Shown: positions 36,085-42,005 of the stretch, piece by piece
Position numbering within the stretch: position 1 is the stretch's first letter
Layout of the letters: every line of letters starts with the position of its first letter
Assembly: GCA_001896725.1 (NCBI GenBank)
Contig: MPPA01000009.1
Span: forward strand, 1 to 64,000
Length of the DNA: 64,000 nucleotides
Direction of reading: 5' to 3'
Source: Methanococcoides sp. EBM-47
GTDB taxonomy: Archaea > Halobacteriota > Methanosarcinia > Methanosarcinales > Methanosarcinaceae
Program-made: the position numbers and the translations under genes
The notes under the pieces: generated by a model
Told to the model about the DNA's origin: nothing
The model's input: the letters and a program-made list of their open reading frames with translations, nothing else
The model's database searches: none

Positions 36085-36128
36085 ATCAGTACATTTATGA
36101 GCCTTTCCGACATCCCTCCTGTCAATGA
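36081..36128 (+). CDS. 15-codon mini-ORF linking TrmB and Rsm22 genes
   Basis: ATG 36081 overlaps the TrmB stop (ATGA) and its own TGA at 36126-36128 overlaps the ATG of the Rsm22 gene (ATGA). The peptide would be MNQYIYEPFRHPSCQ. There is no good Shine-Dalgarno for the Rsm22 ATG, so reinitiation from this frame could supply its translation. It may be chance, but the double overlap is neat. Confidence 0.4.
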   Translation: MNQYIYEPFRHPSCQ

Positions 36129-37633
36129 AGAAGGATAGTGAAAAGGAAATAATCTCCACTCTTAAGTATGTCTCCCACATGAAATCTGAGCTCATGCTGT
36201 CGGAGATCAGGAATTACATTACAAGTGACATGTCGGTCGAACAGATATATGGTGTTATCAGGCCCTTTCTGTACGAACTGGATATTGATGTCATTCAAGA
36301 GGGTGCTGATCTTAGGCTGAGACGGTCCCCTCCAGCAGTGGTAATGAAGCTTACAGAGAACGAGATAAAGAAAAATGAGCTTTTCTTTAGGTCTGCAGTG
36401 GTTTCGGCAAAACTACAGACGCTCATAGAACAGTATATCAGCAAGAAGACCGCAAAGCAGTGGAACGATCCGGTTGTCCTGGACAGGATCAGAAAAGCGG
36501 TTTTGGACCAGAAGGATCTATACTGGAAAGAAGGCAGTTCCCGTAAAATATCTTATAAAAAAGGATACAATGTGCTGGGATATCTTGCTTATCAGTTCCC
36601 GGTATATTTTGTGCAGTTCCAGCATATACTGTATGATATGGCTCTGTCCGGTATACTCAAAACACGTATGAAGGTCCTTGATGTAGGTACAGGTCCAGGT
36701 ACCGTACCTCTGGCTATTGCTGATTTCTACAAACGGCTGGAAGGTCGCAAGGTCGACATTCACTGTGTGGAACTGTATGATGAAAATATTGAAGCTTTTA
36801 ATTCCATTGTTCCGCAATACGCATCTGATTACGTAACTCTGCACGAGCCTATAAGGTCAGACGTGTGTAAAATAAAACCGGAGAGCTTGCCTGAGAACAT
36901 CGACCTTATGGTGTTCTCTAATGTGCTCAATGAGATCAAGGATGTTACTATAGAGCAAAAAGCTGACATGGTATTGAAACTGGCTCAAAGGCTTGCACCT
37001 GATGGCAGTATACTTGTAATAGAGCCTGCGGACAGAACTAACTCGGTGGAACTGCGCAGGTTGAGCATTGCGCTTAAAGAGGCGGGCCTTGGTATATACG
37101 CTCCATGTTCCTTTATATGGAACACAGGTTGCAGTCTTAAAGAGTGCTGGAGCTTCGAGCAAAAGCAGGATATTAATCCAACGCTGCTGATGCACAGGCT
37201 TGCAGAGTGCGATGAGCCATATCGTTACATCAATACAGACCTTAAATATTCTTATTTTATAGTGAGAAAGGATGGTCTTACCAAAGAGTGTTACAGGGTC
37301 CCTCCAAAAGCACGATTTGCACGCTTCTCTAAAATAGGTATGCACAAAGATAAGCGCATTAATGTGGTATGTTCCCTGATGTCAGGTGATCTGGGAGATG
37401 GAAAGTACAGTCTTTACAAGCTGTGTGACGGCACATCCAGAAAAGCCGTATATGCTGTACTTCCATGGCACAATGTCACCGAGGACAATAGCCTTATTAA
37501 ACGGGCTAAGTACGGAGAGATATTAGAGATCCATAATGTGCTTGTGAACTACAATAAGGAAAAGGACGCTTATAATCTTCTTCTTAGCAAAGGAAGTACA
37601 GTTGGTCGTGCTGGCTATGAAAACGATGATTAG
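36125..37633 (+). CDS. Rsm22/METTL17-family ribosome-associated methyltransferase-like protein
   Basis: A 502-residue protein. A helical N-terminal third (about 1-150) is followed by a SAM-binding core VLDVGTGPGTVPLAIADFY, acidic CVELYDENIEAF, and FSNVLNEI. Next comes a cysteine cluster, C328, C336 and C341 (APCSFIWNTGCSLKECW), like the Fe-S site of mitochondrial METTL17/Rsm22, and a C-terminal OB-like region. Such proteins bind the small ribosomal subunit during assembly. A 118-base copy of its 3' end lies at 42077-42194. It is probably translated by coupling to the mini-ORF upstream. Confidence 0.85.
   Translation: MKKDSEKEIISTLKYVSHMKSELMLSEIRNYITSDMSVEQIYGVIRPFLYELDIDVIQEGADLRLRRSPPAVVMKLTENEIKKNELFFRSAVVSAKLQTLIEQYISKKTAKQWNDPVVLDRIRKAVLDQKDLYWKEGSSRKISYKKGYNVLGYLAYQFPVYFVQFQHILYDMALSGILKTRMKVLDVGTGPGTVPLAIADFYKRLEGRKVDIHCVELYDENIEAFNSIVPQYASDYVTLHEPIRSDVCKIKPESLPENIDLMVFSNVLNEIKDVTIEQKADMVLKLAQRLAPDGSILVIEPADRTNSVELRRLSIALKEAGLGIYAPCSFIWNTGCSLKECWSFEQKQDINPTLLMHRLAECDEPYRYINTDLKYSYFIVRKDGLTKECYRVPPKARFARFSKIGMHKDKRINVVCSLMSGDLGDGKYSLYKLCDGTSRKAVYAVLPWHNVTEDNSLIKRAKYGEILEIHNVLVNYNKEKDAYNLLLSKGSTVGRAGYENDD
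37475..37592 (+). repeat. Source copy of a 118-base direct repeat (inside the Rsm22 gene)
   Basis: This part of the Rsm22 3' region is repeated without gaps at 42077-42194 with four mismatches (about 97% identity). Confidence 0.9.
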
Positions 37634-39141: not shown

Positions 39142-39816
39142 CTAGAGGGGAAGCTGGCACTTCCCATCCTTTATGCTCATGCTGATCTGGTCACCGCCAA
39201 CTGAAAAGGGAACAGAGGCTCTTGTATTTATATTGAATCCTACCAGAAAACTTCCTAGGATCTCTTTTTGATCTTTTGCTATCTTTAGCTGCAGAAAATC
39301 GTGAGTATAGCGAGAAGGTATTCCTATTACGGCATCAGAGATGCCTTCAAGAGCATCTAATCGCGGGCATGGCTGTTCTGTGACAAACATACAGATTGGG
39401 TCATCCATATTGCTGTTCCTTACGGATCTTTTGTCATAGAAAACGATATTTCCCATGATAAATGGATCAGCATCTCCACCGAGCTCATTTATCGTATTAG
39501 GGTCTTGTATATCCTCACCTATCATTTTTCCTTTATGGTACATTTTTATGGTATTTACCGGCCAATCGTATTCTTTGTTCACCATTAGAGAAAGGACCAC
39601 ATCAGAGCACAGTGCTCTTTTCATTCCAACATTGTGTTTCTGTCCGATCATCTTGGAACCGATCTGTTCATCCAGCAGTTCAAGTTCTTTTATCTTATAT
39701 AAGTCTGCTGTATCAAGAGGTATTACTCTACAAACGCCTTTGACAGATATCAGTTCTCTTTTCGCTGTTTCGATCATTCTTGTTAGCTGGCTCATTTTTG
39801 CTATGGTTTCTGTCAT
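39142..39816 (-). CDS. Conserved hypothetical protein
   Basis: A 224-residue soluble protein I do not recognise. Visible pieces are KGVCRVIPLDTADLYKI, CSDVVLSLMVNKEYDWPVN, FIMGNIVFYDKRS, ICMFVTEQPCPRLDALEG and VGFNINTRASVPFSVGGDQI. There are three to five Cys but no zinc pattern. The ATG has no Shine-Dalgarno and a TTTAAATAAG element about 25 bases upstream suggests a leaderless transcript. Its last codons lie inside an inverted repeat (GTTGCCAGC/GCTGGCAC, 39123-39160) shared with the convergent upstream gene's terminator zone. Confidence 0.5.
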   Translation of the reverse strand: MTETIAKMSQLTRMIETAKRELISVKGVCRVIPLDTADLYKIKELELLDEQIGSKMIGQKHNVGMKRALCSDVVLSLMVNKEYDWPVNTIKMYHKGKMIGEDIQDPNTINELGGDADPFIMGNIVFYDKRSVRNSNMDDPICMFVTEQPCPRLDALEGISDAVIGIPSRYTHDFLQLKIAKDQKEILGSFLVGFNINTRASVPFSVGGDQISMSIKDGKCQLPL

Positions 39817-39905: not shown

Positions 39906-40037
39906 TTAAACTACTTAGTATACATTCGTGGAGGGAATTTTGCTCAATAAATCAGCAATTCATTTTTATTCTATTAATTACATTAAATTGGCTTGTGGAC
40001 ATTCCAGTCCATTTCCAAATCCGGAAGGTCAAGTTAG

Positions 40038-42005
40038 ATGAACCGAAATACTTTGATATACTCCCAGAAGAAGTATGCGCCAAAACCTAAAAGTCTTGGG
40101 CCCGTATCCAGTCTTGAAGAACATGTGAACCCTGACTGGTGGAAGAAGATATTCAATTCCCTTTATCTGAAGACAGATGCTGATGTAGTAGGTGATTCAG
40201 AGATAACCAGGGAAGAGATAGATATGTTCCTCTCTGTTCTAAACCTTTCGAAGGAGAGCAGGGTCCTGGACCTATGCTGTGGACAGGGGCGTCACTCTTT
40301 GGAAATGGCAAGACGAGGTTTCAAGAATGTAGAAGGGTTGGACAGATCACATTACCTTATTCAAAGAGCAAAAAGCACTGCAAAAAAAGAGGGGCTGAAC
40401 GTACGATTCAAGGAAGGGGATGCGCGTAAAACACCATATTTGACCGACAATTTTGATGCTGTGTTCCTGCTGGGGAACAGTTTCGGTTATTTTGAAACTT
40501 CCGAAGAGGATCTGAGGGTGCTTAATGAAGTAAAAAGAGTGCTCAAACCCTGGGGAAAAATTATGCTGGATGTGACCGATGGGTCTTATCTGAAATCAAA
40601 TTATCAGCCCAGATCATGGGAGTGGATAGATAAACATAATTTCGTATGCAGAGAACGTTCCCTATCCATCGATGGTCAGAAACTGATCTCCAGAGAGGTC
40701 ATCGTCAATGATGAACAGGGCGTCATTGCCGATCAGTTCTATGCAGAAAGGCTTTATACTCAGGAATCGCTTCAGGAGCTTCTCAAAAAGGCTGGTTTCA
40801 TTGATACCGAGGTCGTAACCTCCCTTGGGGTCAACAGTAAGAGAAACCAGGACCTTGGCATGATGGAGAAGCGCATAATAATTACAGCTATACTGCGCAA
40901 GGAATGGACAGAGCCAAAAAAGAAGGTCCATGCGATGCAAAAGAATGTAGTGGTAGTATTCGGTGATCCATCCAAGAGGGATTCTCTGAAACCATGCGGT
41001 GTTTTCGATGATGACGATCTGTACACCATTGACCAGCTAAAAGGAGTTCTTAAGGAAAAAGAGGAATATTCCTTCAGGTTCCTAGATAACCATGACACCC
41101 TTATACAGGACCTGCAACGACTTAAGGGAAAAGTGGACTTCGTTTTTAATCTTTGTGATGAAGGCTACTCCAATGATCCGCTGAAAGAACTGCATGTACC
41201 GGCTCTGCTCGAGATGTTGGGTATACCTTACACAGGTTCGGGGCCACAGTGCCTTGCCTTCTGCTATGATAAAGCTCTGGTAAGGGGTATTGCTAAGGAG
41301 CTCGGTGTGCCTGTGTCCGAAGGTGTCGTCATTAAGGCAGAGGATGTTCTGTTCGAAGTCCCCATGCAGTTCCCGGTAATAGTCAAACCTAACTTTGGGG
41401 ATTCAAGTTTCGGCCTCAATCAGCATAGTGTATGTTACGATCGTGATGAGGTCGTAAGGGCGATCTATGACATACGGGAAGGGCTGGGTTATGACAAACC
41501 TATCCTCATCGAAGAGTTCCTCACAGGCAAGGACCTGAGCATAGGCATTATAGGCAATCCCCATGAGAACTATACTGTGCTGCCGATCATAGAAGAGGAT
41601 TATTCAGTACTTCCTCCTGAATTGCCCCGAATGTGCGGGTATGAGGCAAAATGGATACCGGATTCTCCATACTGGAAGATCCGCTCTATTGCTGCTGACA
41701 TATCCAAGGAAATGGAGGAGTTCATATTGGACTGCAGCTTAAAGATGATCAAGAGGCTCGAGTGCAGGGATTACACACGCCTTGACTGGAGAATGGATGC
41801 AGCAGGTAACCCAAAATTGCTGGAAGTGAATCCCAACCCAGGATGGTGCTGGGACGGGCACCTGGCTAAAATGGCAGCACTGGCAGACATATCTTATCAG
41901 GAAATGATCGCCAGCATCCTCAAAAGCGCAGAAGAGAGGATAACAGGGGCAGAAGCGATCAAGAGTGCGGGACCTGTTTCAGAATTTAATTTCAGGCTAT
42001 GTTAG
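40038..42005 (+). CDS. Fusion of SAM methyltransferase and D-Ala-D-Ala-ligase-like ATP-grasp enzyme
   Basis: A 655-residue two-domain protein. Residues about 60-295 are a class I methyltransferase: VLDLCCGQGRHSLEMARRG, EGLDRS, FKEGDARKTPY and VFLLGNSFGYFET. Residues about 310-640 are an ATP-grasp of the D-Ala-D-Ala ligase kind: VVVVFGDPSKRDS, GIPYTGSGPQCLAFCYDKAL, PVIVKPNFGDSSFGL, ILIEEFLTGKDLSIGI and LDWRMDAAGNPKLLEVNPN. Both sites look intact. Methanosarcinales lack murein, so the ligase half probably joins other amino acids or carboxylates and the methyltransferase half modifies substrate or product. AAGGTCA stands before the ATG. Single gene. Confidence 0.88.
   Translation: MNRNTLIYSQKKYAPKPKSLGPVSSLEEHVNPDWWKKIFNSLYLKTDADVVGDSEITREEIDMFLSVLNLSKESRVLDLCCGQGRHSLEMARRGFKNVEGLDRSHYLIQRAKSTAKKEGLNVRFKEGDARKTPYLTDNFDAVFLLGNSFGYFETSEEDLRVLNEVKRVLKPWGKIMLDVTDGSYLKSNYQPRSWEWIDKHNFVCRERSLSIDGQKLISREVIVNDEQGVIADQFYAERLYTQESLQELLKKAGFIDTEVVTSLGVNSKRNQDLGMMEKRIIITAILRKEWTEPKKKVHAMQKNVVVVFGDPSKRDSLKPCGVFDDDDLYTIDQLKGVLKEKEEYSFRFLDNHDTLIQDLQRLKGKVDFVFNLCDEGYSNDPLKELHVPALLEMLGIPYTGSGPQCLAFCYDKALVRGIAKELGVPVSEGVVIKAEDVLFEVPMQFPVIVKPNFGDSSFGLNQHSVCYDRDEVVRAIYDIREGLGYDKPILIEEFLTGKDLSIGIIGNPHENYTVLPIIEEDYSVLPPELPRMCGYEAKWIPDSPYWKIRSIAADISKEMEEFILDCSLKMIKRLECRDYTRLDWRMDAAGNPKLLEVNPNPGWCWDGHLAKMAALADISYQEMIASILKSAEERITGAEAIKSAGPVSEFNFRLC

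Follow-up and report, generated by a model that had tools for sequence, protein, structure and literature searches.

Why should an archaeon without murein encode a ligase of the D-alanine–D-alanine (Ddl) type, and why should that ligase be joined to a methyltransferase? The question is posed by one gene in the window, the whole 64,000-nucleotide stretch of Methanococcoides sp. EBM-47 analysed here (contig MPPA01000009.1, positions 1 to 64,000). An earlier reading of the letters, hereafter the sequence-only reading, had proposed that this gene fuses a methyltransferase to a Ddl-like ATP-grasp protein and that the product could be an N- or O-methylated dipeptide or a compatible solute. We follow that proposal through the architecture of the protein, its active sites, its relatives and its genomic surroundings.

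Domain architecture of the fusion

The fusion itself is borne out, as the gene is a single 655-codon ORF and Pfam and AlphaFold2 agree on its two domains. The gene is laid out as follows.

40023–40029, + strand: Shine-Dalgarno-like GGAAGGT, 8 nt 5' of the ATG, by direct reading of the sequence
40038–42005, + strand: fusion gene (methyltransferase and ATP-grasp ligase), 655 aa, single ORF with an ATG start, full length in 82 aligned homologues
40095–40907, + strand: NmbA-like class I SAM methyltransferase domain with cap domain, residues ~20–290 (Pfam, AlphaFold2, Foldseek)
40908–40946, + strand: interdomain linker, residues 291–303, of low conservation and with low pLDDT at 293–298
40947–41957, + strand: Ddl-superfamily ATP-grasp ligase domain, residues 304–640 (Pfam, Foldseek, hhalign)

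Pfam assigns residues 76–173 to Methyltransf_25 (E 2.6e-21) and residues 442–628 to Dala_Dala_lig_C (E 5e-24). In the AlphaFold2 model of the whole fusion both domains are folded well (mean pLDDT 85), and the pTM of 0.54 leaves their predicted placement relative to one another uncertain; the methyltransferase half modelled alone reaches a pTM of 0.83. Across the 82 aligned copies, which are 56–93% identical to the window copy, the mean majority-residue frequency is 0.48 in the linker versus 0.75–0.81 in the domains, while mean pairwise identity is 0.68 for one half and 0.69 for the other, with a correlation across pairs of 0.77. Equal constraint on the two halves combined with a freer linker is what would be expected of an enzyme whose two domains are functionally coupled.

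Active site of the ligase half

All of the 50 best Foldseek matches listed for the ligase half are Ddl or D-Ala-D-Lac (VanA-type) ligases, and hhalign relates it to E. coli DdlB at 99.4%. With the K-12 sequence of DdlB as the residue ruler, the following elements can be placed.

41007–41018, + strand: acidic patch D324–D327 of the N-terminal lobe, with D or E at position 325 and otherwise invariant in 82 copies
41148–41165, + strand: NLCDEG, residues 371–376, aligned in place of HGxxGEDG of true Ddl
41271–41273, + strand: K412, equivalent to the ATP-binding K97 of DdlB, 82/82
41385–41387, + strand: K450, equivalent to DdlB K144, 82/82
41637–41654, + strand: GYEAKW loop, residues 534–539, with W539 in place of DdlB Tyr216, W in 82/82
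41778–41786, + strand: R581 and D583, equivalent to DdlB R255 and the Mg ligand D257, 82/82
41823–41861, + strand: EVNPNPGWCWDGH, residues 596–608, with the Mg ligands E596 and N598 kept and G607 in place of the acceptor-binding Ser281

E492 (DdlB E180) is likewise kept in all 82 copies, and there is no loss of metal ligands, given that D583 and N598 (DdlB N272) are present in 82/82 and E596 (DdlB E270) in 81/82. Judged by alignment, the ligase half is a Ddl-superfamily ATP-grasp enzyme with its ATP and Mg residues intact.

The fold and these ATP/Mg residues, which it shares with DdlB, VanA and their relatives, would suit a true D-Ala-D-Ala ligase carrying a passenger methyltransferase, but the features that set Ddl apart are lost from every copy. 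HGxxGEDG is replaced, Tyr216 of the Ddl triad E15/S150/Y216 is tryptophan in 82/82 (E15 is not reliably alignable), and at the site for the carboxylate of the second alanine the fusion reads NPNPGWCWDGH versus NTxPGMTxxSL in Ddl, with G607 for Ser281 in 82/82. The NCBIfam Ddl model scores the fusion at 130 bits against a cut-off of 243, every Ddl equivalog model falling far short, and the protein, with its attached methyltransferase, occurs in archaea that have no murein. We therefore regard a true Ddl as scarcely credible, and the view that the fusion is not a murein enzyme stands. The genome holds no other Ddl-like gene; its remaining PF07478 matches are ORFs of 504 and 1077 aa, lengths that correspond to a biotin carboxylase-type protein and to CarB.

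By sequence, the ligase half belongs with a broader Ddl-like group with an NLxEG motif, which includes unfused plasmid proteins. These 'ATP-grasp domain-containing proteins' of rhizobial and Thioflavicoccus plasmids are ~31–33% identical to the ligase half and have the NLxEG...HVPA/ML motif region in common with it, but carry no methyltransferase. On Thioflavicoccus mobilis plasmid pTHIMO01 (L120, 4479–8825), the unfused relative lies in an apparent operon with a diaminobutyrate transaminase, SbnA and an ornithine cyclodeaminase-like gene, which is likely a diaminopropionate/diaminobutyrate peptide pathway. Related archaeal genomes also encode a second composite Ddl-like protein of 719 aa (L016, 1294–3450; L017, reverse strand), 29% identical, in which the partner of the ATP-grasp ligase is an M20-family peptidase rather than a methyltransferase.

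Relationship of the methyltransferase half to NmbA

The methyltransferase half is equally conserved in its presumed functional elements, three of which stand out in the alignment.

40266–40289, + strand: SAM-binding motif I, LDLCCGQG, residues 77–84, with D78, C81, G82 and G84 in 82/82
40473–40493, + strand: post-strand-4 motif GNSFGYF, residues 146–152, near invariant in 82 copies
40611–40760, + strand: cap-domain substrate region, residues 192–241, invariant or nearly so in 82 copies

D102 is also kept in the aligned copies, and the cap region includes R192, SWEW (193–196), RER (205–207), R238 and Y240. The key residues that the sequence-only reading had recognized in both catalytic domains are thus essentially invariant in the 82 copies.

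The best solved relative by sequence is NmbA of Chlorobaculum tepidum (9RI2), which matches at 109 bits over the whole domain, cap included (fusion residues 37–267 with NmbA 15–242), while the next-best solved structure reaches 78 bits over the core only; in the Foldseek search with this half, 9RI2 ranks second. The relationship also holds in reverse. When NmbA residues 15–242 were used as the query against 60 genomes, the fusion was the top match in 12 of 12 fusion-bearing relatives at 82–95 bits, versus 73 bits for the best non-fusion protein and 62 bits for the closest other solved structure. In bacillithiol, NmbA methylates the nitrogen of the cysteine; it is inactive on glycine and glutathione, and its homologues have been presented as a new class of methyltransferases that are N-directed (PMC12719100, PMC6282198).

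Full-length homology including the cap, reciprocal best matching and the SFGYFET stretch, which aligns with NmbA S131–T137, link the two proteins, and R192, E206, R207, R238 and Y240 (fusion numbering) are common to both. At the 65 columns that are near invariant in the family, NmbA has the identical residue in 35 and a true glycine/sarcosine N-methyltransferase (GSMT) in 24; for the cap the figures are 7/21 and 3/21. The likeness is incomplete, however, as identity is ~30–34%, the pocket is common only in part, and the invariant SWEW has no clear NmbA counterpart. NmbA also stands alone and accompanies BshA/B/C, whereas the fusion occurs mostly in genomes without BshC. The structural neighbours of this half include N-, C- and O-methyltransferases, among them the natural-product N-methyltransferases CypM and CcbJ.

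We also considered whether the fusion is a GSMT. The Methanohalophilus enzyme (5GWX) has the Rossmann core and GNSF motif in common with it, but scores lower (~52 bits), and the amino-acid-binding DQRNYD arginine is absent from the fusion; with 51 bits on the curated GSMT model against a cut-off of 350, this assignment is not supported.

Distribution and genomic context

Full-length fusions are found in four of five genomes of the same genus, and other members of the family carry them as well; at the level of the phylum, the gene is present in 38 of the 247 genomes sampled, a few split or partial matches included. Relatives are encoded by 568 stretches of the genome collection, of which the best 80 were kept and align with almost the full length of the query, so the two domains are not separate, unrelated genes in close relatives. 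The spread covers many archaeal and bacterial phyla, with archaeal records labelled Methanosarcinaceae, Methanophagales, Asgard archaea and Aigarchaeota and bacterial records labelled Planctomycetota, Atribacterota, Aminicenantes, Desulfobacteraceae, Zixibacteria and Calditrichota, among others, although many of these records are metagenome bins whose taxon labels can be wrong. To speak of an archaeon undersold the family, since bacteria commonly carry the fusion too. Copies from methanogens are ~65% identical to those of Planctomycetes, Atribacteria or Asgard archaea.

Two nearly identical copies, one labelled Methanophagales (L032, 4921–6885) and one labelled Nitrosotalea (L037, 238–2202), suggest that one of the two bins is mis-binned. 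On a quick tree, archaeal and bacterial copies are intermixed, and the separate acquisition by two Methanosarcinaceae lineages that this tree suggested was dropped, as a constrained tree that keeps the Methanosarcinaceae copies in a single clade withstands the test and scores better (p-AU 0.909). Together, these two trees do not fix the course of transfer between Archaea and Bacteria. A virus scan returned no viral homologue of the fusion, and a plasmid scan returned unfused ligases but no full-length fusion.

The gene has no constant company. Neighbour clustering over 80 loci revealed no recurrent neighbour family, a close co-directional neighbour lies upstream in 12 of 75 loci and downstream in 20 of 75, and no RNA families were found around the gene. 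In the window, an Rsm22-like methyltransferase of 502 aa, an archaeal relative of the mitochondrial ribosome assembly factor, is encoded at 36125–37633, and a protein of 224 aa that matches no Pfam or NCBIfam model at 39142–39816 (− strand); L024 and L025 have an equally long ORF on the same strand at the corresponding place upstream of the fusion. An AstE/AspA (DoeB-like) deacylase directly adjoins the fusion in three loci from TA06 and Desulfobacteria (L030, 614–1762; L073, 9919–10935; L083, 5231–6211). It might hydrolyse the same amide product, but three loci are too few to build on, and we set it aside as an operon partner. Because the fusion is constant across phyla and moves or persists without partners, its product is probably broadly useful and made from common metabolites.

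Proposed function

The conservation of both active sites in one polypeptide indicates that the fusion is very probably a bifunctional enzyme in which both activities are real. The chemistry of each half follows from its family; amide formation, N-methylation, the substrates, the order and the thiol discussed below are what we infer beyond it. The ATP-grasp half would act as a Ddl does, on substrates other than D-alanine, converting the carboxylate of an amino acid or similar compound to an acyl phosphate that an amine would attack to give an amide. The NmbA-like half would, most likely, transfer the SAM methyl group to the amine of the aminoacyl unit, before or after ligation, and the product would be small, soluble and built from common precursors. 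From the sequence of the two halves, it is an even call whether the product is such a small-molecule N-methylated aminoacyl amide made by a self-contained enzyme.

The part of the sequence-only reading that survives here is the ligase/methyltransferase logic behind a methylated dipeptide; its choice between N- and O-methylation can now be narrowed, with N favoured because the best-matching solved homologue is NmbA. The partly shared NmbA pocket, the ~30–34% identity and the N-, C- and O-type neighbours may nonetheless count against N-methylation.

Among specific products, the foremost candidate is an N-methyl-cysteinyl thiol, a putative functional counterpart of N-methyl-bacillithiol in anaerobes of which most have neither bacillithiol nor gamma-glutamylcysteine; the ligase would join cysteine to a small amine and the methyltransferase would methylate the cysteine nitrogen. 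Many anaerobic archaea and bacteria that lack bacillithiol or glutathione might use such a compound as their redox thiol. We advance only tentatively, as one doubtful possibility, that the product is an undescribed N-methylated low-molecular-weight thiol made by one polypeptide.

Bacillithiol itself is not the usual substrate of the fusion, since bacillithiol synthase (BshC) is missing from each of the 247 phylum genomes sampled and from 39 of a further 44 genomes with the fusion, most of these 44 being bacterial. The glutamate-cysteine ligase GCS2 is found in 0 of 38 fusion genomes of the phylum versus 72 of 209 without the fusion (Fisher p 9e-7), an exclusion that follows phylogeny, as no archaeal family holds both and the family-level p is ~0.05; among the 44 other fusion genomes, one has a strong GCS2 match. 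That BshC and GCS2 are absent would be compatible with an alternative thiol, but phylogeny confounds the pattern. Many anaerobes lack both enzymes, and their joint absence may simply be the common state of an anaerobe. The thiol is further weakened by a ligase half in which nothing points to cysteine, by five fusion genomes that carry BshC too, and by patchy presence within one family, which speaks against an essential thiol.

The same bifunctional logic could instead yield a non-thiol N-methylated dipeptide or aminoacyl-amine, such as a metallophore, signal or antibiotic, a reading that we find conceivable and likewise doubtful. The Thioflavicoccus plasmid ligase, among the best-scoring unfused ones, adjoins genes for diaminobutyrate and diaminopropionate synthesis, neighbours which suggest that unusual amino acids may be the substrates of some members of the wider ligase group. 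The acidic residues D324, D326 and D327, which are invariant, could suit a basic substrate, and the structural kinship with CypM and CcbJ also favours the non-thiol reading. A secondary metabolite would, however, normally come with a transporter, regulator or biosynthetic partner, none of which is conserved here, and ~65% identity across phyla suggests a product of wide use. Alternatively, the methyltransferase might convert a carboxyl group to its O-methyl ester and so protect or block it for the ligase, by analogy with cystargolide assembly, in which CysG methylates a carboxylate in the same pathway as the ATP-grasp ligase CysD (PMC11427300). We consider this improbable, as there is no conserved esterase partner and the nearest solved relative is an N-methyltransferase.

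The compatible solute for salt stress put forward by the sequence-only reading fares poorly. The family of the window has many salt-adapted members, and an osmolyte, N-acetylglutaminylglutamine amide, is known to be the product of GNAT/ATP-grasp fusions. Within the family, however, the N-epsilon-acetyl-beta-lysine gene AblA is present in 3 of 9 fusion genomes versus 13 of 19 others (p = 0.11), a trend that is if anything negative, and both relatives with a true GSMT for glycine betaine lack the fusion; a synthase of this kind is quite improbable, and the link to beta-lysine through AblA was rejected for want of a positive association. Certain ATP-grasp and methyltransferase families modify proteins, so an enzyme acting on a protein or peptide was also weighed, but both halves are closest to small-molecule enzymes (Ddl and NmbA) and no partner protein is conserved, which makes this very improbable.

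Significance

A keyword search of the literature, which proves no absence, found no description of the methyltransferase/ATP-grasp architecture; in the main text of an archaeal fusion survey ATP-grasp is mentioned twice, in neither case of the methyltransferase kind, and a study of archaeal pseudomurein ligases concerns a different ATP-grasp group. The architecture is thus undescribed as far as the literature was searched, and the earlier expectation that it has no characterised counterpart holds over the same ground. Both parts come from known families, while their combination is new, widely distributed and strikingly conserved without an operon. A review of archaeal thiols names a gap in what is known of how low-molecular-weight thiols are distributed and structured in archaea (PMC7278568), and if the product of the fusion is a thiol, it would bear on this gap.
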